Positions 17,701-62,990 of a DNA stretch of 64,000 bases are shown piece by piece. Source of the stretch: Haliotis asinina (taxonomy: Eukaryota; Mollusca; Gastropoda; Lepetellida; Haliotidae); the NCBI RefSeq assembly GCF_037392515.1, contig NC_090282.1, forward strand, positions 33,097,054-33,161,053, in the 5' to 3' direction. Both the position numbers and the translations under genes were made by a program. A model generated the notes under the pieces. That model worked only from the letters and a program-made list of their open reading frames with translations, was not told the DNA's origin and made no database searches. The number at the start of each line of letters is the position of its first letter. The first letter of the stretch is position 1.

Positions 17701-20700
17701 AAGAAAGTTGGTGAGAATAGAGACTGATGCCATTTCTCAACAACAGTTTGACAACTCTGAAATTTGTGTTGATGACGAGTTGTTGGAATGTTCACACTCT
17801 CAAACTCAAGTTTGACAACATGTGTTGTCGTGTGAAGGCCACTCAAAGACAACACTGACTAAGATTTACACATGTAGCTCTTCAACGAAAGAATACAAAT
17901 ACTTACTTGTGAGGCCATTAATATTGTAGAGATGTGGTGTGACAAAGACCATGAGAAACCCAATAAAAGCTGTTATACAGAACTTTTCCAGTACAACTTT
18001 CTGTAAAATGAAAACAGAATATAATACACTATGAAAAAGAGTAGTTATTTGTTAGTTATTAAAAATATTAAAAGCAGAAAAGAATAATACCACTACATCA
18101 ACTGCATTGACAATAAACATGAAACAACTAGAATACACATTTATAAAATATGTGTTGTGAAACAGTTGTTTAAACCATATACACACATATATTTATCTAG
18201 ACCCACTTAGTACCCTTATCCTGACACAACACACACCTACTTCATATACTGAGTCAAAAAAGAAACTTCATAAAACGTAGTTTCTAAAAATAATGCATAA
18301 TTGTTCTTTGATGACACATATATGTTTCCAAAATGGGATCCCTATCTTTCGACTGTAGAAAAACATTAGCAAAACCCACTCAAACTCATCCATTCGATGT
18401 GCAAGTGACGTTAGTGTCAAATCATGTTTTGCACGTGCAGTTGATCACATGATCTTCGCATTGAGGTTTTCATAATTTGCATGTGTTTGCAATTGGCCCC
18501 AAGAATTGAAATAACACTTTTCAACCACAGCTCTAACGGTATTTTAAATGCCACGATTGTCAAATGTGCAACGTGACGATGCTGTTGGCATGTTGCAAGC
18601 GGGAAGATCAGTTATTGACGTTGCAAGAGCAATGGGATGCAGCCGCCGTACTGTGTGTGACTTGCGAGGTCATTTACAACAGATTGGCACCACTTCTGAT
18701 TGCCCAAGGTCGGGTCGTCCATGTGTGGCGTCATGAGCAGAAGACCATCAAATCGTCCGACATCACCTATGTGACAGATTTCTGCTGGCTACACAAACCA
18801 GAGCTGAGATGTTTCAAGGTCAACTGTCCTAACAGACCATTTGAAATCAGTTGCGGACTGCCAATCTCCATTCTTGATGTCCATATTGTGGGCCAATACT
18901 GACGCCGTTTCATCAACGCCAACGTCTGCTGTGGGCCCAGCGTCATCTCCGATGGACCCAGAGAGACTGGAATTGAGTCGTCTTTAGTGATGAATCCAGT
19001 TTTACTCTCAGATTCGCTGACGGCAGACATAGAGTCTGGAGACGACGTCGTGGACAGTATGCCAAATGTTGTGTACAGGAAGTCGACAGATTCGCGGGCG
19101 GAAGTTGCATGGTGTGGGGTGCTTTCTGCACGAACAACTGTTTCCGACTTCTGGTCATCTATGGAAACCTGCTTCTGGTTACCGCAATCAGGTGCTCACC
19201 CCTGAACTTGTTGCTTTCATGGTGGCTCATGGCCCAGGTCTACAGTTCCAGCATAATAACACTCGGCCCCATACCGCGATGTTGAGACAAAATTTCCTTC
19301 AAAACGCTGGAATCAACGTGTAGCGCTGTAGCCAAATGGAACTGATTGTGGCACTGCCAGTGTACTGAGTACATCACATAGTTCTCAGCAATAAAATAAT
19401 AATTTAACCATCTTACCATCTCTTGTTCTTTTATAAAGCCCTGAAGAAAGAATGTTAAGTTTCTTTTTTGACTCAGTATATTTCATCTCCGTTACAGCAA
19501 AGGGAAATCAGAATGTGCCTTTTCTACAAGACACAAATTACCAGTAATTTTTAAACAAAAACTGTAAACTGTAGATGTACATAGAATGATTGCATTGTAT
19601 CACTTCAGGTGCATCTTACATCTGTCTGGAAGATGTCCTCTGTTTCCTCTGGCACTTTGTCAGACTTTCCCTACAACATGAACATGGTCAATATGTATCA
19701 CAGAGTTAATAAATTAAATGTAACATTTCTTAAACAATTCATCATGGTCATTTGTGTGTATAATCAACACTATGACATCAAGCACATGTTGGTGTACAAT
19801 CAACACTATGACAAGAAAACTTTAGATTACCAGGTCAACTTGGATGATTCATCATGTACTAAATGTTTCAACGTTCAACCTACATTGACAGAGGATGGCT
19901 TCGTGGGCTCAGTAAAGTTCCGTCCATCAATGAAGGCGATGTAGTCAGAATAGAAGGCCATGGGACCGCACATGATGCCATGGAAGGAGAAGAGGTAGCT
20001 GTAGAAGGACAACAGGCCTGGCATACTCCTGGCAAATAAAGAGGTATTACCATGGTTACAGAGGACAGAGTTCAGACAACAATATTATGATGATATCACT
20101 ACAAAGTATGCAGAGCACTCATTATTAGAAAATCATTCAGTGGCATCAGAATCTGTTGTTGCAGAGTTTCTAAGACAAGTATGCCAAAGGATACACTTTG
20201 ACACAGGTCTAGTTTCAAAAGTGATTATCTTTATTACATGGAGACACTTACAGAGTTTCTTCTAAAAGTGGTAGGCTTTTAAATAAGTCATGCTTATTTA
20301 TGATGCCTTGAGTTCAGCCAGTTTACATTTTAATCATGATTATACATCAACATCTATGATGTTTGTTCTTCAGTGTAGCATCCAATCACTTGATTGTTCA
20401 CCTTGTCTTGGAAACAGGATACTAGGAAATGCATCAATACACCTAACTGCCTAATTCTCTTTGGGTGCAGAATACTAGGTGATGCATCAATACACCTGAC
20501 TGCCTAATTCTCTAACTTATACAAGATACTAGGCGATGCATCAACACACCTGACTACCTAATTATCTTAGGATGTAGGATACTAAGTAGGGCATCAACAC
20601 ACCTGATTACCTAATTATCTTAGGATGCGGGATATTAGGTGGGGGATCAACACACCTGATTGCCTAATTCTCTTAGGATGCAGGATACTAGGTGATGCAT

Positions 20701-23700
20701 CAACATACCTGACTGCCTAATTCTCTAACTTATACAAGATACTAGGCGATGCATCAACACACCTGACTACCTAATTATCTTAGGATGTAGGATACTAAGT
20801 AGGGCATCAACACACCTGATTACCTAATTATCTTAGGATGCGGGATATTAGGTGGGGGATCAACACACCTGATTGCCTAATTCTCTTAGGATGCAGGATA
20901 CTAGGTGATGCATCAACATACCTGACTGCCTAATTCTCTAACTTATACAGGATGCAAGGTGATGGATCAACACACCTGACTACCTAATTATCTTAGGATG
21001 CCGGATATTAGGTGGGGAATCAACACACCTGACTGCCTAATTCTCTTAGGATGCAGGATACTAGGTGATGCATCAACACACCTGACTGTCTAATTCTCTT
21101 AGGATGCAGGATACTAGGTGGGGCATCAACTCACCTGACCGCCTGACTCTTCTGGTCTGCAGAGAGCTCTTCCTCAGACTTCACTGTTCCATCATGGAGG
21201 GAGAATGCCAGACTTGTCAACTTCTGTACCATGATCATCATTGGCCTGTAGTAAGGTATGCAGCAGCAATGTTAAGTTGCTATGTTTAATCTCTTGCCGA
21301 CAAGGCTGATGTGGTAACATACAGTTTTACTGGAGGAGTTAAACATGGCACATGGAGAATGGAAACAGTAGGCGGGGTTTAGAAATCATGATATCAATGT
21401 TGCAAGTCATGTCATCTTGGAGTGAGAGAGTTTAACGCCCAATTTTAGCCATATTACATCAATATCCCAGAGGACACCAGAAATGGGCTTCACACCCGTT
21501 TGCTAATCAAACCTGGGTCTTCAGTGAGATGAGTGAATGCTTTAACCCCTTTGGCTACCCCATCCCCCACTGACATCTTGGAAATATATTTTAGAACTAT
21601 AACAACCTAAAAAGTCAATCAAATGACTGAAAAGAAAAATCACTAAGGAACAGTATCAATGGCCTATGATCTATGGCCATTCATCGATAGAGAGATGTGT
21701 GACTGACTGACCCTGTGATGTCGAGTGTGTATCCGCCATAGTCGTAGATCTGCCTGAAGATGTGTGTGATGGAGAGGTAGAGCATAGCAAAGCCAAACAC
21801 TGCCTTGTGCATCCACTCCCGACTGCCCATCAACATAATCAAGTAGCACACCAGTGACAGGAAGAATAAGTGCCATATTTGACTGAAATTAACAAGGACA
21901 TTAACAACGGTTATAGGAGAAGAGTACCACATTGGAACACTTCAAAATCCATGATAGTTAGATTTAGAAATTCTTGCATAAGTATCCATGGTAACAATAT
22001 CACTGGACTTTCTTCACACATCCAACATGTTGAAAACAATCAGACCCTATCCAACTGTGGTATATATCCATAACGCAAGTATCTTCTGTGCTTACTATAC
22101 GGGTCTGTTTTTCCTATTTGCCAGGCTTCAGTATCACTTAACATGTCAAAGTTATATGTTTACCAAAGTTTCAAAGAATAGCTGTGTCGTGCACACATAA
22201 ATGAGAGTATAAATTATTTAAAGAGCAGTACTCAGTCCATTTGAATACAAAAGGCTGTAAGCTTAAATTAACAATAAAGAAGTTGTCTATCCATAGAAAA
22301 AGTTTACGATACTAATAAACAGCAAGTGAGTAAGTTTGATTTTACGTCGCTTTTAGCAATATTCCAGCAATATCACGGCAGTGAACATCAGAAATGGGCT
22401 TCACACACTGTACCCATGTGGGGAATCGAACCCAGGTTTTTGGAGTGACAAACAAACATTTTAACCACTAGGCTACCCCACCGCCCTACTAATAAAGAAG
22501 TTGAACATCCACAGATCTTCTCCCGATGTTCCTCACACCAATTTCTAAATGCCACTCAAAGTGTCAGTGAGTTTAGTTCTACACCCCACTCAGCAATATT
22601 CCAGCAATGTGGCAGTAGTTTATAAATAATCATGTCTGGACCATACAATTCAGTGATCAATAGCATGAACATCAATCTACACAACTGGGATACAGCGACA
22701 TGTCAACCAAGTCAGTGAGTATGGCCACTCGATCCCATCAGTTGCCTCTTATGACATGCATGGGTTACTGAAGACCAGTTCTTGCACGACTCCAAAGTCA
22801 AAGAAGCTAAAGAGCATTATGAATACCACAATAACAGTCATGACAATAATGCCAGGAATGTATAGCAGTTTTACTTTTTTATGTCCCAGTTGTCCTTGTC
22901 CGCGTACACTGTCAGTGTCAGAATGTGCAGTAGGTTTAATATGCAGATAAAACAATTGGATATGTAAAGAACTAAAGAGTTAATCTTTCAACATGTTTAA
23001 CAGGAGTTCATGTACACATGTCTTTTCTTCTATGGTACTTACTATCCAAAGCAGAAGAATGTCAGAGTAAATCCAACAACAATTTCTATGGTATGCCGAA
23101 TAGTTGCACTGGTCGTCTTAGGGCCATATAATTTCCTGAAGGGGATAGCCAACCCAAGTCCAATCAGCTGACACAGCAGAAAGTTGATCTACAAGTAAAA
23201 GGTGTTGTTTGGTCAATAAGAACACAAAACATGATGAAACACTGAACAAACTCATAACCATGATGGTTGTATGAGTTAGTGAGAGAGTAAGTTAAGTGTG
23301 AGTTAGTGAGTTATCAATCTGGTAATGAGAATTAGAAATGTATATTCTATTTCCTAGTTCACATTTACAAAACTGATAAGAAACTGCCACTAACATTGTC
23401 TACCTACTCATAAGTGAGCGAGGGAGTTTAGTTTTACACCGCACCTAGCAATGATCTAACTGCATGAGGGTGATGTGTAACTAATTGAGTCTGGATCTGA
23501 CAATCCAGTGATCAGCAGCATGAGCATCGATCACCACAATTGGAACATGATCCATTCATAAGCTAGTATTCCACAAAGAATGGTTGCTTCCTGAATTCTA
23601 CTGGTCTAATGACCATCAGAATTTCCTATAAACTTTTGAAAATTAAATACGCAATGATGATCATAAAAAGCTCGTGAAGTATGCCTACCAGAACAAGCTT

Positions 23701-41661: not shown

Positions 41662-42959
41662 TAGTATTCCCAGAAATTATTGAGAATCATGTTGCGTCAT
41701 GTAACTCATTACGTTTATTAACTACTGGCGTTTTACTTACATAAACATGTTAAAACATCATCCTTTTACAGTCTCAGTCTTGTTTTAGTACTTTGTCAGA
41801 CCTCCTCGCTCAGCAATGCATGCCTGAATACGCCTAGGCACACTACCCATCAAAGTTTGTAGGTAATCGTGCGACAGGGTATCCCAATATTGGACCACCT
41901 CGGCCTTCATATCTTCAATATTTCTCAGTCCCTTTTGGTTTATTCTGTCCTTCATGACTCCCCATACATTCTCAATTGGGTTTAGGTCTGGGCTGTAACT
42001 GGGCCAGTCTAAAACTTGAACATTTTCGCCCGACAACCACTGTTTTGTGTAGCGCGCTGTGTGGTTTGGGTCATTATCATGCTGGAAAATCCAATCATCT
42101 TCATACAATGTTTGTGCTGTCGGAAGAAGGTGACCACTTAGAATGTCAACGTATCTTTCTTTTGTCAAGTTTCCCGTGAAAACACACAATGGCGTCACTC
42201 CGCGAGCCGATATGCCACCCCACATGTGAAACTTCGGGCTATGTTTTGGTCGTTGGTAGATAGGTTTGACAGTATCTTTGGTCCAAATTTTCACACAATT
42301 AGGGAAAAGCCAAACAGAACTTTCATCCGAAAAGAAAACATTATCCCAATCTTGATTTTCATGAGCCCGACACCAGTTTAAACGTTTTTCCTTTTGTGCA
42401 TCTTTCATCAACGGCGAGGGAATTCCACGTTTTTTCACCCAATTAAGTCTCTGTAATTCCTGCCTAACTGTTTCATTGCACACCTGAGGACTTCCTCTGC
42501 TAATCATTTCATTTCCGATGTTCTCAACACTTTTCAATTTGCCCCTACTCACAATCTGCCCAAGTCTTCGGCGATCCACAACACTGAATTTCCTAGGCCG
42601 ACCTGCCCCTGCTTTGTGCTCTATCTCGGTTCCTGTTTGAATATACTTCAAAGTTCTGTATGCTGTAGACATAGGAATACCATGTCTACAAGCTAACACT
42701 TTAGCATCAGCCTCACCCCTTTCAAAATCATCTAGAATGAGCTTTCTTTTCTCTCTTGCTGTAAATTCTGCCATGTCAACACAGGAAGCCGTCTGCTCAG
42801 ACAAGGGAGATACCTCTTGACGTAATGAGCTGCCTTTTAAGCCTTCAAGAGTTGTCTCCCTTATTTAGTATGCTTAGTGCATAGTGAAAACCCTTTTTCC
42901 AATCTTAGCATCATTAGAAAAAAAACCAAAGATTTTCTCAATAATTTCTGGGAACACTG
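41662..42959 (-). mobile_element. Tc1-like DNA transposon, apparently intact
   Basis: 1298 bp bounded by TA dinucleotides (41660-41661 and 42960-42961). The terminal inverted repeats read CAGTGTTCCCAGAAATTATT GAGAA at the right end and TAGTATTCCCAGAAATTATT at the left. Two differences near the tip of the left end mean that end may be weakened. It encodes one uninterrupted transposase and has inserted into the LINE 3' UTR, so it is younger than that LINE. Confidence 0.92.
41785..42804 (-). CDS. Tc1/mariner transposase, DD34E
   Basis: 339 aa, full length for the family, cut-and-paste transposase acting at TA targets. N-terminal helix-turn-helix (around residues 12-60, including HGIPMSTAYRTLKYI) and the AT-hook-like GAGRPRKF (about 66-73). 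Catalytic triad: D150 in FFSDESSVW, D243 in FQHDNDPNHTA, E278 in SPDLNPIENVWG. The D243-E278 spacing is 34 residues, as in Tc1 proper. Translation could start instead at Met11 (MAEFTAREKR). No stop or frameshift, suggesting recent activity. Confidence 0.95.
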   Translation of the reverse strand: MSEQTASCVDMAEFTAREKRKLILDDFERGEADAKVLACRHGIPMSTAYRTLKYIQTGTEIEHKAGAGRPRKFSVVDRRRLGQIVSRGKLKSVENIGNEMISRGSPQVCNETVRQELQRLNWVKKRGIPSPLMKDAQKEKRLNWCRAHENQDWDNVFFSDESSVWLFPNCVKIWTKDTVKPIYQRPKHSPKFHMWGGISARGVTPLCVFTGNLTKERYVDILSGHLLPTAQTLYEDDWIFQHDNDPNHTARYTKQWLSGENVQVLDWPSYSPDLNPIENVWGVMKDRINQKGLRNIEDMKAEVVQYWDTLSHDYLQTLMGSVPRRIQACIAERGGLTKY

Positions 42960-44223: not shown

Positions 44224-44894
44224 GTGAGTCACTTATCATGGACGATGAATTAATTCAGGCAGCTGCTCACCAACTATTCATCGCAAAATTACAAACCGTC
44301 CTAGCGCCAAAGTTGACTAGTTGGTCCAGTAGACAGACCTCCAAAATGTGGTGCAGTTCATAATCAGGATTGATTTAGCTTTGATTTAAAGTCAGCTGTC
44401 ATCAGCTATGCGCAACTATCGTGCAGGGGCCCTTTCGGGGGGGGCAACATATCATTTCAGTTATGGTAATATCTTGACCGATGAATGGATGGTTCAATTT
44501 ATTGACTCTGGCTTTGACTAATCAGTTTCATCCAAACAATAGTTTTGGAATACTGAGATCATCATTAGTATTTAAAATTGTGGACAATAATATTATATAT
44601 ATGCACATCGCAAAAATATTTTTATTTCAAAGGTCATTCGTAATAAAGATTGCATTTGATCAGAAACGGTAATGAGGGTTTCAGTGGTTTGCATGTTTTT
44701 CACGTAAAGTGATAAAATATTAAATGCCAATAAATGAATGCCTTCATAAACTTAAACTCATAAACGACCGAAATGGGACCGTTCCCTAGCAACAATACTT
44801 AGTTGTCACGCGCCGCCGTCAGACCAGCAGCTGAAGATCAGGCTGACATCGAGTTGCAACGCCCCAGGTGGACCAGTATCTGTGCACACTGAAC

Positions 44895-47800
44895 CCACAC
44901 CGTAGGAGCGGTGAACGGCAGGAAATAGTTCATCGCAGGAAATGAACAACTTATCATGCTAGAGATGAGCACGTTTTAGTTTTTAGGTGTAGGAAAACTG
45001 TCAATATCTGAATTTCTATTGGTCACATTGTTCCCAAAATTCATTCTGTGAAATAGAAGATACATGTGCGTATTCCCACTAAATATCTTTCCATTCCGTC
45101 AGTATTCAAACCCACGAGCCTGTGAAACAATGTCTAGCTTCGCCTTTGTTCCCGTAAAGATGCATAAACTTATCAAAGTTTTAGGTATCATTGTTGTATA
45201 AACCCAAACTAAAATACACCAACATTTAGAGTAAGTATCGAATTATCTTTGTGCCAAATGTGAATGGTTTGTGTTTTGCCGTTTTGAAACTCTCATCCTC
45301 GAAAGGCCGACACCATCAAACTGTTAGTGAACGAGTGAAGAACATCATGGTGAACGTTTACATGTCGAACTCTGATTTACACAGTGAACGCTTTACGGTG
45401 GTTATTCAACAAAGTTTCTAGTGACAAGTTGTGCTGTACTGCCCAAAACTAGTGTAGTGTTTCAGTCACGGATGATAATTCTTTCTCAACTTGTATAACT
45501 GAGTACAAGAGGTAGTGGTTTGTATTCTTAACTATTGTGTCAGCAGTCATATGAGTCGCAAAACATTTGCAGATGTAGGCACTGGAAGTGAGTGGAATCA
45601 CATTGGACTGTTCATTAAACAACACAGTTACTCACCCCGCCATTAGCACATCTACACACATGAAAAGCAGTGCCGTCAAAAAGAATTACCTGTGTGATAA
45701 CTAGGGCCAACAATATCTCACTAAGAATCTGCAGCAAGATGTTTATGTCAAACCATCACTATGATGGTCACATGAACAATCATTCTAAACTGAAGCCTTA
45801 CAAATGTTCTAAATGTAAGACCCAGTACGCCTATTCATCGGGACGTACATCACACCAGACACGATGTGAGAACGATGAAACCCCCATAATCCACAGTGTG
45901 ATCAATGTAGTCAGGTTTTTAAGGCTTCCAAGTGCCTGAAGGATCACCTCAAGAGTCTCCACTCCCCAACACTCCCATACGTGTGCGAGTGTGGGAGAGG
46001 ATTTAAATGGCGATCATCCATGAAGAAAGACAGGGGTACGGCTTGTGTAACTACAAATAAGTGATATGCAACTGAATAAGTGTTTACGTTTACGTGTGAG
46101 GTCAGCAGGGTACATTTTACATAATGTAACTACACTTACTTTCATCATCATGCATGTGCAGTCACACTAAAATGAGAGTGTTTTTAATTTATTACCTTTT
46201 CCCGAGTTTCCCGAGAAATCAAAGCGTTTCCTGAGCTGACTGCGAAAAACAAAACTTTTCTCAATCCAAAACTTTGCATTTACCGAGTATAGAAGTCTTT
46301 TTGGTTTATTCAGTTTTCACTATTTCTTATTGACTACTTTAATGTCATACTACTTGCATAAAACCTATCACTGGTGTGATAAATCGTATTGTAATGACTT
46401 TGTATAGATTAATACCGATTTATGTATTATTTCATATTCCTTATATTTACAAACGTGAGATTCATTTCGATGTTTTTAGTAAGTTTGTAGGAATTAGAAT
46501 TCCCTTTAAATTCATTGCATTTTTAACTCCCCTGACTTTGAATCAGGCACACTGCATCAAATGCATACATTTTGTTATCGTAACAGTCATTGTGACCGAA
46601 CAAAGTGGACATGGTTCTTACCAACTACAAACTATGTGAAAGAATCACATAAAAATACACAAGATCATTTCAGTTGTATTGTTATTCTTTCTGTACTTTG
46701 TACTGTTTCATGTGATTGAGCATATCGTAATTGTCCTTTCACTCCGGCAACATGTGAATCAACACAAGATTAACACACACATTAGCATTGTTCACAGTTC
46801 TGTTTCTGAAATTTACAATGAAAAAGCCCGTATGCAGCTAACCAGAACATTTTGACACTGTCGGTGTACCACCTCTGGCAGGCTGAACATGAGCTGTGAA
46901 ACGCTACTACATCCATGAAAAGAAGAAAGGCAATGTTTTCTATAGGAAACTTTTTTCAACTATTAAGGTGTTAATGTAACAAAAAGATCTGATAAGCCAT
47001 GTTGTAATTCTAACAGCACTGATGGTAGCATGTCACGTAACATTTGAAGTTGATCTTTTGTGTTGTTGCTACTGACTGAATCTTTCATCACTTATCTTTA
47101 CTTTCTTTGGTGGACATTCTGATGCTTGAATTCTAGGTAGTAAAGGAGTTCTAGGAGTTTTTCAGGTTCCTTGGAAACAACAATTTCTGTATCAATTCTA
47201 TTTGGCACATATTTGAAATCTTGTGTACGCATTTGAATTTACCGGTTATTTCACACAAAGGTATTTTTTTTAACAATAACTGTCTTATTCCCGGCAAAGT
47301 CAATACAGTGGTATATCACCCCACTGAAGTCTTGGTAATGTTCAGAACAGTAGTACCACTGATATGGTGACATTTCCATCGTTTCAACAGTAAATCTGCA
47401 GAATGGAATACAGAATGATAGTTAGTGATAAGGCTGAAAAGCACATTGGATGATGAGGTTTGGTTGACCGTAAATTGTTCACCAAGAAAAGATGCGATCG
47501 TTCAACATGACCATTTGTATGGGTTCTTCACTCGTTCACTAACAGTTTGATGGTGTCGGCCTTTCGAGGATGAGAGTTTGTAAACGGCAAAACACAAACC
47601 ATTCAAATTTGGCACAAAGATAATTCGATACTTACTCTAAATGTTGGTGTATTTTATTTTGGGTTTATACAACAATGATACCTAAAACTTTGATATGTTT
47701 ATGCATCTTTACGGGAACAAAGGCGAAGCTAGACATTGTTTCACAGGCTCATGGGTTTGAATACTGACGGAATGGAAAGATATTTAGTGGGAATACGCAC

Positions 47801-47971
47801 ATGTATCTTCTATTTCACAGAATGAATTTTGGGAACAATGTGACCAATAGAAATTCAGATATTGACAGTTTTCCTACACCTAAAAACTAAAACGTGCTCA
47901 TATCTAGCATGATAAGTCGTTCATTTCCTGCGATGAACTATTTCCTGCCGTACACCGCTCCTACGGTGTGG
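44895..47971. mobile_element. 3.08-kb element with 449-bp terminal inverted repeats
   Basis: 44895-45343 is repeated inverted at 47523-47971 with only scattered differences. The tip CCACACCGTAGGAGCGGTG contains its own small hairpin (CACCG/CGGTG). A 3-bp AAC flanks both sides (44892-44894, 47972-47974), a possible target-site duplication. The 2.2-kb interior holds a C2H2 zinc-finger sequence (45706-46063, plus) but nothing resembling a transposase. The right half of the interior (46070-47520) has only short ORFs. High arm identity implies a recent insertion or gene conversion. Superfamily unknown. Confidence 0.85.
45706..46063 (+). pseudogene. C2H2 zinc-finger sequence inside the long-TIR element
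   Basis: First frame: RICSKMFMSNHHYDGHMNNH, then KLKPYKCSKCKTQYAYSSGR and TSHQTRCENDE. After a run of five C at about 45883 the reading must shift to give NPQCDQCSQVFKASKCLKDH, LKSLHSPTLPYVCECGRGF and WRSSMKKDRGTAC, with a TAA/TGA end near 46063. Four fingers can be read, with LKPYKC-type linkers. The first finger lacks its first Cys and may start at an acceptor just upstream (CTAAG). The last has Asp where His is expected. A single missing C would explain the shift, so either a decayed gene or a homopolymer sequencing error. Confidence 0.65.
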
Positions 47972-48325
47972 AACCTAAGGAACCGCTTCCTGGTGGTGAC
48001 GTCATAAGCGGCACAAGACTTGGGTCACAGTGTAAGTCAATACGCAATAGCCAGACGACTGGGTACCAGTGGATTCCTGACTTACAGACCTCTCTGGGCA
48101 CAGCCGAACATCGTCGACGGAGACGTTGGTAGTGACATGAGTGGCAGAGGGTGCTCTTCTCGCATGAAACCCTCTTCTCTCTGGTCAGAGCTAACGGAAG
48201 AGTGCGTGTTCATTACCGCCGTGAAGAAAAAAACGGCTGTGTTTTGTGTGCAGAAGGTGGTGCCGTATATGGAGCAATACCCCACTCAGACATATTATCC
48301 TATACCAGGTTTTAACGTCTTTTAA

Positions 48326-56459: not shown

Positions 56460-57989
56460 CTGCAAAATAGAATACGAGAATTATTTAGAGAATTCGAACT
56501 CGAACCAGCATCCAGCAAGTTGTCAACACCAGCATAAAATCTAAGTCCCTCCGTAGCTTGTACATTTATCATCAGCTCTGCAATCAAGCACATTGCCTAA
56601 AGCAAATTAATTACTCAGTCCCAATTGTGCCAGATTAGACAGCGTCCACTGTAGTAACATATGCAAGACCATCATATCACGGCTAACATATAATTTAGTC
56701 TTGCAACTTAAACACTCAAGAATGTAATAATAATTTAACATAAATATAGGAACATTCTTATCAATATCAAGGCGGGCCATGCCACAAATGGCTCGTGAGG
56801 TAGGATCCCCACCTTCACCATGACGAGCGAATGCTTAATATATGAAAAAGAAAACATAAATAGAGGATGTGACGTACGTTGCTTGGCAACAAGGGCGCTT
56901 GGGTATGTCTTCTTGCATGGTGTGTAGGGCTCGGGAAACGGCAACTCGAGGATTCCGTGAAATCTAAACCTAGCTTCGAAATCTGAAACAGCAAGGATCA
57001 GTATCATGTTAGTTTGTACTTGTACGTGTCCGAAGCTAAATCAAGTAGAGATGTTCAGGGTCCACTTGCACAAAGCGATCTTTGGTCATGATAACTCTCA
57101 CACTGTAATATAGACTTCTAAAGATGGTTTTAGAGATTTCTTTGTGCAAGTGGGGTCTGATTTTATTAAGCTGTTGATTGTTTTCTGACTTCACACCTTG
57201 CAAGCTGCGATATGATTTGCAGTGTTTTGCTGTTGTCAATAAGACTTACAGTGTTTTCACTGCTATCAATAAGACTTACAGTGTTTTCACTGCTATCAAT
57301 AAGACTTACAGTGTTTTCACTGCTATCAGTAAGGTGTTTTTGCTGATATCAAGAAGACTTAAGATGATTACACTATGCCACTTAGAAAGTGGTCAAATGC
57401 AACATATGTCATATTTGGGATTTCACTTTCTCAGACTTAAGATGTTTTCGCTGCCATCAATAAGACTTTCGGTGTTCTCGCTGCTACCAGTAAGACTTAC
57501 GGGGGTTTCGCTGCTACCAATAAGACTTACGGAGGTTTCGCTGCTATCAATAAGACTTACGGGGGTTTCGCTGCTATCAATAAGACTTACGGAGGTTTCG
57601 CTGCTACCAATAAGACTTACGGAGGTTTCACTACCACCAATAAGACTTACGGAGGTTTCGCTGCTAACAATGACTTACAGTGTTGTCGCTACCATCGATA
57701 AGACTTTCGGTGTTCTCGCTGCTACCAATAAGACCTACGCAGGTTTCGCTGCTACCTGTATGACCTACGGAGGTTTCGCTGCTAACAATACGACTTAAAA
57801 TGTTTTCGTAAATGATTAAAAAAAATAACTTACCTAAATTAGGACAGAGAAGGTAAGCACTGTTCTAGTTGGACTGATGACATTGTTAGATTTACCTGAT
57901 ATATCTGGCACAGATCTAGAGGGTATCCTACGTGTTCTCTCGGGCAGCGGCGGTGGAGCAGTAGAATTCACCGACAGTAGCTGGGCCAT
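56395..57989 (-). CDS. WIPF: WIP/verprolin family protein, WASP-binding C terminus
   Basis: Three exons (57896-57989, 56878-56982, 56395-56459) join in phase into 87 codons plus TGA. Exon 2 encodes DFEARFRFHGILELPFPEPY and TPCKKTYPSALVAKQ, matching the C-terminal WASP/N-WASP-binding region of WIPF1-3 (pattern D-F/W-E-x-R/K-F-x-F-H ... P..E.Y ... K.YPS). The last exon encodes RESPPPPPPPRRQRPSLPAL, a proline-rich end like that of WIP. WIP proteins bind actin through N-terminal WH2 motifs and hold WASP inactive until signalled. The WH2 and long proline-rich parts are not seen upstream in the window. The first exon begins exactly at an ATG following TTTACAG, so it may be an internal exon or a true start. 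Confidence 0.82.
56878..56982 (-). CDS. WIPF: WIPF-like exon (WASP-binding motif)
   Basis: Acceptor TGTTTCAG, donor GTACGT. 105 nt. FEARFRFH and EPYTPCKKTYPS are the conserved contact region of WIP with the WASP EVH1 (WH1) domain. This is the diagnostic exon. Confidence 0.88.
57053..57165. mobile_element. Short MITE with TTGCACAAAG ends
   Basis: Left CAGGGTCCACTTGCACAAAG CGATCT and right, inverted, CAGACCCCACTTGCACAAAG AAATCT. About 110 bp in total. Similar termini occur in PIF/Harbinger-type MITEs. It lies just upstream of the diagnostic WIPF exon. Confidence 0.6.
57235..57795. repeat. 30-bp minisatellite in the WIPF intron
   Basis: Units of AAGACTTACAGTGTTTTCAC TGCTATCAAT. Three nearly identical copies (57241-57330) precede a ~105-bp interruption and then about twelve GGAGGTTTCGCTGCTACCAA-type copies. 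The 30-bp period keeps a plus-strand frame open for 206 codons (NKTYGGFAAT-like repeats), antisense to the WIPF gene. No sign of real coding. Confidence 0.9.
57896..57989 (-). CDS. WIPF: WIPF-like exon (proline-rich part)
   Basis: Bounded by TTTACAG and donor GTAAAT. Encodes MAQLLSVNSTAPPPLPERTR and RIPSRSVPDIS, 31 codons plus one nucleotide, phase 1 out. PPPLPERTRR has the PxLPxR/K style of SH3 ligands found in WIP. Confidence 0.75.
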
Positions 57990-58256: not shown

Positions 58257-58789
58257 GCGTCTGAGAATAGCATAATTTGTCCTAAGCCACCCGGAGTTGT
58301 TCAGGCTCCCTGAGTTGGTACTGACGTCATCGAATCGTATCGTCACATGGTTGGAAAAGCATTAAACAACAACGAAAACAAAACATCTCAAACGCATTAC
58401 GTCTTTGCGTTGCTGCAAATTCCGGAAATACTTATGAATGCACTTAAAGGTCACATGCAACCAAACAATCAAACATAATTAAAACACATTTATCACTTAT
58501 TCATGGCATATGTTGTTCATTGCTGCTTTTAAAAAAACAAATAAACAAACTTATAAGCGTACAGTTGCGATTCAAAAGTGCAATTTTGTTGTACTTGGGC
58601 TTATTTCCCCCGAAACGAAGCCCTCGGGAGACCGAACCCAGTCATAGCGGGTGGATATGCACTCAAGGGTAACGACGGCTTCCGATTGTCTGTTTCATTT
58701 GCTGATATGCTGAGGGTTCATTGTGTGTACAGAAAGATGATCTGTTTGATGGGCATTTTAGAAGTATAGCCAATCACAAGAAAGTAAGA

Positions 58790-58904
58790 TTCTCTATGGA
58801 TAACAACTTCTTTTTGTGTACTTGATGCGACGTTTCAGAATGGATTCATATACTGTTGTCAAACAAAATCATATACACTAAAAGAAGTCGTTATCCATGA
58901 AGAA
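58790..58904. mobile_element. Third palindromic element with GAAACG core
   Basis: Arms 58790-58823 and 58871-58904 (TTCTCTATGGATAACAACTT versus inverted TTCTTCATGGATAACGACTT) with about five mismatches over 34 bp. On the minus strand the interior has TTGACAA, a CAG...CTG stem and GAAACG, aligning with the CTGACGA...GAAACG of the element at 3021. Confidence 0.65.
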
Positions 58905-59842
58905 TGTATATAGAGATGTTGGGTTTGGAAAATACATGTTCTCTGAATTTGGGCTCGATCCAATCAAAAATCATGTCAGTAGAGATGGTAAACTACTGCG
59001 TGGCTGGAATCTGTCATTTGTCCAAGTACAAAGCAGGACTTAGAACTGACAAGAGTTTGCAAAAGGTTTCCGTCAGATCCAGTCATCCGAAAAAAATGAA
59101 TGTAGTTTGTTTGCAACCCACAGACATAAAAACATGTCATGTGTATCACACGTACCTAATTACATAATGTGGCAGACACGGGACTCGGGTGCAGGAGTCA
59201 TAAATCAACTTATTTTCTTTATGTCGTATAGTCTGATAGGTGTTAAGTTCAAATTGCACGTGGTCAGTGATTGAAGATGTAGATTGCATGTTGTCTTTAG
59301 CAGACAGGCAGGCAGGTGTGAATAAACCAGACACTGAGCTTTCTCTGTGACAGAGACTGCTTACCACAATCAACAAGTTTTTTTTACGTAACGAGGTGTT
59401 TATTTAATTGTTTGCGTACACAACCAAGATTAGACTACTGCTGAATTGGCATTTTTTATGATTTGTTTCGGTAAGTGCATACCGAAAGGTACCAGAATCT
59501 GCAAAGCTGTGTTTTAAGTTGTATGTGACCTTTAAACGAAATATAAGAATTCCGGAAATACTCATGAATGCACTTAAACAAACAATAATGAGCGTTTGCT
59601 CGACACCGATTCAAAATCAGAATGGAATGTCCTTACTCATAGTGTTTGAGAATATGTAGTTAAGATAAAATGTTTAAATTGAGAAATATTTAATAAATAA
59701 GGGTGACATGTGTTGCAAGTTGCTTACAGGACATGTTACTCATCCGTGTTACTACCAAGGCAACTAAAGCAACCAGGATTCAAGTGTTGTATCCATGGGT
59801 ATTCGGCAGAATATCTATCTTTAAACCATGACTCATGTCTTA

Positions 59843-60419: not shown

Positions 60420-61140
60420 ATCCCTCGGTGTAACATTGGCCATATGCTAGTATCAGTGTAACAACGGTCATCTGCGAGTATCGGTGTAACATTAGCCACC
60501 TGCTATAGTATCGGTGTATCATCGGCCACCTGTTATAGTATCGGTGTATCATCGGCCACCTGCTACTATTGGTTTATCCTCGGCCACCTGCTAGAATCGG
60601 TGTAGCATCGGCCATCTGCTAGTATCAGTGTAACAACGGTCATCTGCGAGTATCGGTGTAACATCGACCATCTGCTATAGTATCGGTGTATCATCGGCCA
60701 CCTGCTATAGTATCGGTGTATCATCGGCCACCTGCTAGTATTGGTTTATCCTCGGCCACCTGCTAGAATCGGTGTAGCATCGGCCATCTGCTAGTATCAG
60801 TGTAACAACGGTCATCTGCGAGTATCGGTGTAACATCGACCATCTGCTATAGTATCGGTGTATCATCGGCCACCTGCTATAGTATCGGTGTATCATCGGC
60901 CACCTGCTAGTATTGGTTTATCCTCAGCCACCTGCTAGAATCGGTGTAACATCGACCATCTGTTATAGTATCGGTGTATCATCGGCCACCTGCTAGTATT
61001 AGTGTAACATCGGCCACCTGCTAGTATCGGTGTAACACCAGCCACTTGCTAGTATAGGTGTAGCATCGGCCACCTGCTAGTACTTGTTTATCCTCGGCCA
61101 CCTGCTAGAATCGGTGTAACATCGACCACCTGCTAGTCTC
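60420..61140. repeat. 30-bp minisatellite with 172-bp higher-order repeat
   Basis: Units of GTATCGGTGTATCATCGGCC ACCTGCTATA and variants, about 24 copies. A block of six units starting GTATCAGTGTAACAACGG recurs at 60450, 60622 and 60794 (period 172 bp). The array resumes at 61745-61865 after a LINE fragment. Confidence 0.9.
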
Positions 61141-62489: not shown

Positions 62490-62990
62490 ATCGTAGGCCG
62501 GTGGCAGATAGTAGCGAGTTGATGGCGGGCTGCTAGCGTGATAGTGGAAGGTTGATCGCGGGCCGGAAGCGAGACAGTGGAGGATTGAATCATCACAGGT
62601 CCGAAGAAAAATACCGGAGGGTTGATTGCAGGCCAGTAGCGAGATTGTAGGGGACTGGTCGCTGGTGAAGGGTTGAACTCGTGCCAGAAGCGAGATAGTG
62701 GAGGGTTGAATCACAGGTCGGTAGAGAGATAGCGGAGGGTTGATTGCGGACCGGTAGCGAGATTGTGGAGGGTTGATCACAGATCGGTAGCGAGATTGTA
62801 GAGGGCAGATCGCAGATCGGTAGCTAGGTAGTGAAGGTTTGATGGCTTGTCTGTAGTAGCGAGATTGTGGAGGGTTGATCACGGGTCCGAGGTGAGATTG
62901 CAGAGGGTTGATCGCGGGCCGGTAGCGAAATAGTGGAAGGTTGATCACGGAACAGTAGCGAGGTATTGGAGAGCTGATCACGGATCGGCA
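62490..62990. repeat. 33-bp minisatellite
   Basis: Units of GAGATTGTGGAGGGTTGATC ACAGATCGGTAGC, about 14 diverged copies. The period is a multiple of three, leaving a 212-codon minus-strand frame (SRYRSVINPPQ repeats) and a second overlapping frame. Real coding is doubtful, though the minus-strand frame beyond the array (YYLPPAYDLPSTFSPPATHT) is proline-rich. Confidence 0.85.

Follow-up and report, generated by a model that had tools for sequence, protein, structure and literature searches.

A low-copy terminal inverted repeat transposon family with hairpin-tipped arms and decayed zinc fingers in Haliotis asinina

Transposons of the RAG and Transib type generate 5-bp target duplications and have CAC ends (PMC7204232; PMC8289069), and the terminal consensus of protostome RAG-like elements is CACTWMCAAAC (PMC7204232). 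Duplications in the IS256/MuDR group range from 4 to 10 bp (PMC10045372). Foldback elements, such as FB4 (Drosophila) and Tetris, have very long inverted arms, a variable middle, and known copies without a transposase; their duplications measure 9-10 bp in FB4 and 8-10 bp in Tetris (PMC4079207; PMC8277862). Gene capture by elements with terminal inverted repeats (TIRs) is known in animals (PMC8277862), and Pack-TIR and Pack-MULE elements hold non-transposase gene sequence between their TIRs, are multicopy, and have differing duplications. Kolobok elements have a TTAA duplication and RR..YY ends, and Ginger elements have TGTNR ends and a 4-bp duplication (5 bp in TDD-4 and TDD-5). See also PMC9587614 and PMC2836005.

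Within the window, a 64,000-nucleotide stretch of H. asinina DNA, two inverted arms of 449 nt each (44895-45343 and 47523-47971) are spaced 2179 nt apart and are identical at 440 of 449 positions (97.996% complementary); an earlier note on this DNA had recognized them as long, nearly identical repeats. No further arm copy is present inside the window. The bounds given in that note (44895..47971) were nearly right, with one flanking base too many at each end. According to the arm alignment, the starts of arm matches, and the tips, the element spans 44896..47970 (3075 bp, no strand assigned) and has the ends CACACCG...CGGTGTG. The repeat unit is set to start at CAC (44896) because, among the 46 matches that the arm has in the genome, 19 start at the C of CAC (query position 2); three start at position 1, two of them being the window element itself, and 24 start further in. 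Judged by sequence, the base preceding CAC is part of the duplicated target and not of the element. The TIRs are therefore 448 bp long (5′ repeat, 44896..45343, forward strand; 3′ repeat, 47523..47970, reverse strand) and differ by 9 mismatches in 448. The hairpin noticed earlier at the very tip (CACCGT-AGGA-GCGGTG, 44898..44913, forward strand) is mirrored at the opposite end and held up in a folding test, in which the first 65 nt gave a z of -2.78 and 2 of 200 shuffles folded equally well. The motif GTGAACG occurs at element positions 16, 432, 455, and 489, with an inverted copy at 2638, and these repeats could be binding sites. An Rfam search at gathering scores returned no match, and the exact 18-nt tip was absent from viral contigs.

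The sequence GAACC is found exactly in both flanks (44891..44895 and 47971..47975, forward strand), directly abutting CAC...GTG; the 3-bp AAC duplication proposed previously is the inner part of this 5-bp repeat, and was mistaken. Empty-site reconstruction and alignment identify the target as a decayed Tc1/mariner transposase, with an upstream piece at 44835..44895 and downstream pieces at 47976..48222 (both forward strand), the right flank showing a weak HTH_Tnp_Tc3_2 match below the Pfam cut-off. Deletion in silico of the element and one GAACC yields a single frame across the junction, with stops elsewhere in the relic, and 52 codons spanning the restored junction align ungapped, with 31% identity and an E of 8e-7 for the joined hits, to a second Tc1 relic elsewhere in the window (18707-18862). 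A PDB search with the joined flank gave no match. At the sequence level, this reconstruction shows a clean insertion within a decayed Tc1/mariner gene. Because a 3-bp reading yields an identical empty site, the length of the duplication rests on the other copies. Elsewhere in the window are an open frame of 359 aa for a Tc1/mariner-like transposase, with a DDE_3 match (41788-42864, reverse strand), and minisatellite arrays of several periods (20415-21144, 57222-57797, 60425-61137, and 62518-62988).

The proposal that this is a mobile element with other copies is upheld by the 1.143-Gb assembly, in which 46 arm matches were found (40 of 51 candidates scored), representing about 36 loci by hand grouping; 28 of the 36 were read, four of them to 1.5 kb each way. 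The 31-nt tip occurs at 22 genome sites with up to three mismatches (reversed-pattern control, 0) and the 18-nt tip at 15 sites with up to one (control, 0). CAC starts 20 of the 22 longer tip sites, the remaining two starting with CGC and CAT. Six copies are well placed, neither tip having more than 4 mismatches in 18. Target duplications are perfect over 5 bp in four of these: the window element (GAACC), L031 (TATAA), L034 (TGTAC), and L036 (ATGAT). L035 is flanked by CTATT and CGATT, a match at four of five positions, and L032 has both tips and flanks matching at none of five, hence no duplication. When alternative lengths of 2-9 bp were considered in the four perfect copies, the sole complete match was one of 2 bp, in L036. 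At L039, L040, L042, and L046, the best placement of one tip has 5 mismatches in 18, a level expected by chance on simple arithmetic, and the flanks are unmatched. These data, with TIRs and a duplication of constant length at independent sites (four perfect, one at four of five, and one without; n = 6) as in class II elements, show by sequence comparison a multicopy TIR DNA transposon family inserted at separate sites.

L034 and L036 are internally shortened, and several old loci have one arm only; when 11 loci were examined for a second, hidden arm, scores well above those of 10 shuffles were obtained for L044 and L042 alone. The extra tip sites L053, L054, and L055 hold old single arms, and at L057 a piece of an arm gives way to sequence resembling the LINE of L038. 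At L051 (97-140; C7:43324696), with adjoining L052, similarity to the tip stops after its first 44 nt (91%) and unrelated DNA follows; this site could mark another subfamily. L035 contains an additional 1.28 kb that belong to a different element, which ends in AGGTCAC and has TTAA flanks; a non-autonomous element at 58448-59531 of the window, bounded by AGGTCAC...GTGACCT and flanked on either side by TTAA, is 92% identical to it over most of its length. With regard to kinship, both arms of the same copy are nearest kin in the window element, L035, and L032, and weakly so in L037, while the arms of L031 are not, its 5′ arm grouping with L033. The window arms differ from each other by 0.020 and from those of other copies by 0.037-0.100, a pattern that fits homogenization of the two arms of one copy.

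The family shares the 5-bp target duplication and CAC ends with Transib and RAG-like elements, but differs from them by its 448-bp arms, its ill-fitting positions 4-7, and the A-rich block: the family terminus, CACACCGTAGG, departs from the protostome RAG-like CACTWMCAAAC beyond CAC and lacks the heptamer-like, A-rich arrangement. Mutator-type enzymes are compatible by length, since IS256/MuDR duplications span 4-10 bp. The family resembles FB4 and Tetris in its long inverted arms, its variable middle, and the lack of a transposase of its own among the ORFs scanned in its copies, but its duplications are 5 bp rather than 8-10 bp. Kolobok, Ginger, and CACTA elements are likewise TIR DNA transposons of animals. 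CACTA elements end in CACTA/CACTG and have duplications of 2-3 bp. TTAA duplications, typical of Kolobok and piggyBac, were not found in the family copies, and neither were the TGT ends of Ginger. Duplication length and ends together fit none of the compared superfamilies cleanly. No published description of this low-copy family was recognized in the literature searched (Repbase outside its scope).

The interior between the arms (45344..47522, no strand assigned) has a 3′ part without a recognized domain, according to the ORF list, Pfam, and a genome search. This search yielded 36 pieces, most of which share a locus with a listed arm; those at C10:21785237, at C16:34745988 and 34746364, and at C6:28415602 do not. 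Another piece belongs to the old copy L056, so that the whole interior, and not just the fingers, is old. The earlier note had seen no recognizable transposase, and Pfam scans of four ORFs of the element likewise gave no transposase domain, a HipA_C match (E 0.14) being dismissed as chance level. Nor was a transposase belonging to the family found among the 26 ORFs Pfam-scanned from the window and from the copies with their surroundings, or recognized among the ORFs listed without such a scan at L051-L055 and L057. The transposases found in or near copies are separate or nested Tc1 elements. Intact Tc1 transposases adjoin the copy in L034 and lie within an arm in L040; these open 402-aa frames (L034 8644-9849 and L040 8075-9280) read alike. 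The reverse transcriptase of L038 (Pfam match below cut-off) belongs to a nested LINE-like element, and an ORF in L033 with a match to the integrase core rve_3 (E 0.03, below cut-off) lies beside the copy and not in it. The RAG1 profile PF12940 had no match over the genome, the same model being positive in 0 of 14 controls.

We consider it likely that these elements are a low-copy TIR family, non-autonomous or wholly decayed, with foldback-like arms, mobilized in trans, and carrying a dead zinc-finger passenger. A putative transposase acting in trans would recognize the hairpin-bearing ends, make cuts staggered by 5 bp, and paste the element into its target. A Transib/RAG-like DDE enzyme would best fit the 5-bp stagger and the CAC ends, and is our leading, unproven guess. 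The family may accordingly work like a Transib/RAG-type element without being filed there, a likening held at low certainty because the rest of the terminus misfits and Mutator-type enzymes are compatible by length. The zinc-finger gene would have been acquired before the divergence of old and young copies and would now be decaying as a passenger. Against this reading stand L032, which has no duplication, the four copies with a poorly placed tip and unmatched flanks, and the old loci with a single arm.

The internal C2H2 fingers reported by the earlier note are real but decayed, and lie in two frames (45664-45939 and 45879-46064). Cross-copy comparison places the gene at 45573..46064 (forward strand), where a start-like ATG is followed in this copy by an immediate stop. 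Relative to the other copies, the window gene has a gap within fingers 1-2, and its frame shifts from finger 3 to finger 4, counting the five that can be read for the family from several copies. Pfam C2H2 matches in both frames are below curated cut-offs; the finger pieces, once joined, match solved C2H2 proteins (PRDM9, E 1.4e-16). A protein database search with the fingers returned one candidate and none at E 0.001 or better, and relatives of the zinc-finger ORF were absent from viral contigs. As to whether the copies carry fingers or a transposase, the scanned ORFs hold no transposase and some copies hold fingers: remnants occur in 7 of 25 sources (the window and L027-L050), namely the window, L031, L033, L035, L036, L037, and L038. 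An eighth finger-bearing copy is L056 (C3:78342717-78343131), whose finger remnants are 70% and 83% identical in DNA and adjoin an arm remnant of about 75% identity, which marks it as an old copy. All eight are broken or partial. The lesions vary among copies, although the window, L031, L033, and L036 have the frame change in common; these four also share a stop at the end of the gene.

It is possible, if unlikely, that the zinc-finger protein was a functional factor of the element's own, for example a TIR-binding or regulatory one, in an extinct autonomous lineage of which the sampled copies are corpses. The age of the gene speaks for such a role: L056 clusters with the old arms at a support of 0.818, on the far side of a branch of 0.078 (support 1.000), so the fingers have long been aboard. 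Since the lesions differ between copies, an ancestral open frame from ATG to stop is plausible on our own reading. In simulation, a neutral 309-nt frame remained open over 0.08 changes per site with a probability of 0.036 to 0.25, by assumed indel rate; survival by luck is therefore not improbable if indels were few. Selection has left no visible mark on the fingers. Minimum changes by codon position in six copies are 15, 23, and 18 in 93, 93, and 91 columns (p 0.42), showing no codon-position constraint, and the young majority differs from L056 at 16/80, 18/78, and 18/78, again with no third-position excess. Clear finger matches are also absent from 18 of the 25 sources and from L051-L055. 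The earlier suggestion that the element's own protein is a zinc-finger factor thus keeps the long residence of the fingers and loses any sign of selection in six copies. A further proposition, that a DNA-transposon lineage having 5-bp duplications and 448-bp arms tipped with hairpins long retained a multi-finger C2H2 protein as a working factor of its own, its final intact copies having died out or residing in a relative, is rather unlikely.

The other suggestion of the earlier note, a captured host gene fragment, takes the form of a Pack-TIR-type capture shortly before the young copies spread, which we regard as improbable. Such elements are like the family in having gene-like sequence between TIRs in several copies with differing duplications, and the known capture by animal TIR elements (PMC8277862) lends the idea some precedent. 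In several copies, the ATG directly follows TTTGCAG, which to our eye looks like a splice acceptor. The family differs in that its gene content is old, already being present in L056, and in that a close parent is lacking among the genome matches listed. A genome search with the fingers gave 11 listed rows of at least 78% identity, all in the seven family loci, and the non-family matches among those listed, out of 198 matches from 150 of 1397 candidates scored, reach at most 42% identity, so that no recent parent gene was found; this same isolation favors the own-factor reading. Lastly, a one-off inverted duplication, to which nothing points beyond the single window and which the earlier note had tied in advance to an arm unique to this locus, is refuted, because arm copies with their own target duplications exist elsewhere in the genome.

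The reading that we prefer, then, is of a trans-mobilized family with a dead zinc-finger passenger, and the gene carried by this family has no close counterpart outside it among the genome matches listed. Should a live relative prove to encode a transposase, a branch near Transib/RAG or near a different superfamily could be added; should a live relative retain an unbroken zinc-finger frame, the gene would represent a transposon-encoded zinc-finger factor. Failing both, the family would simply add to the non-autonomous elements that carry a dead passenger.
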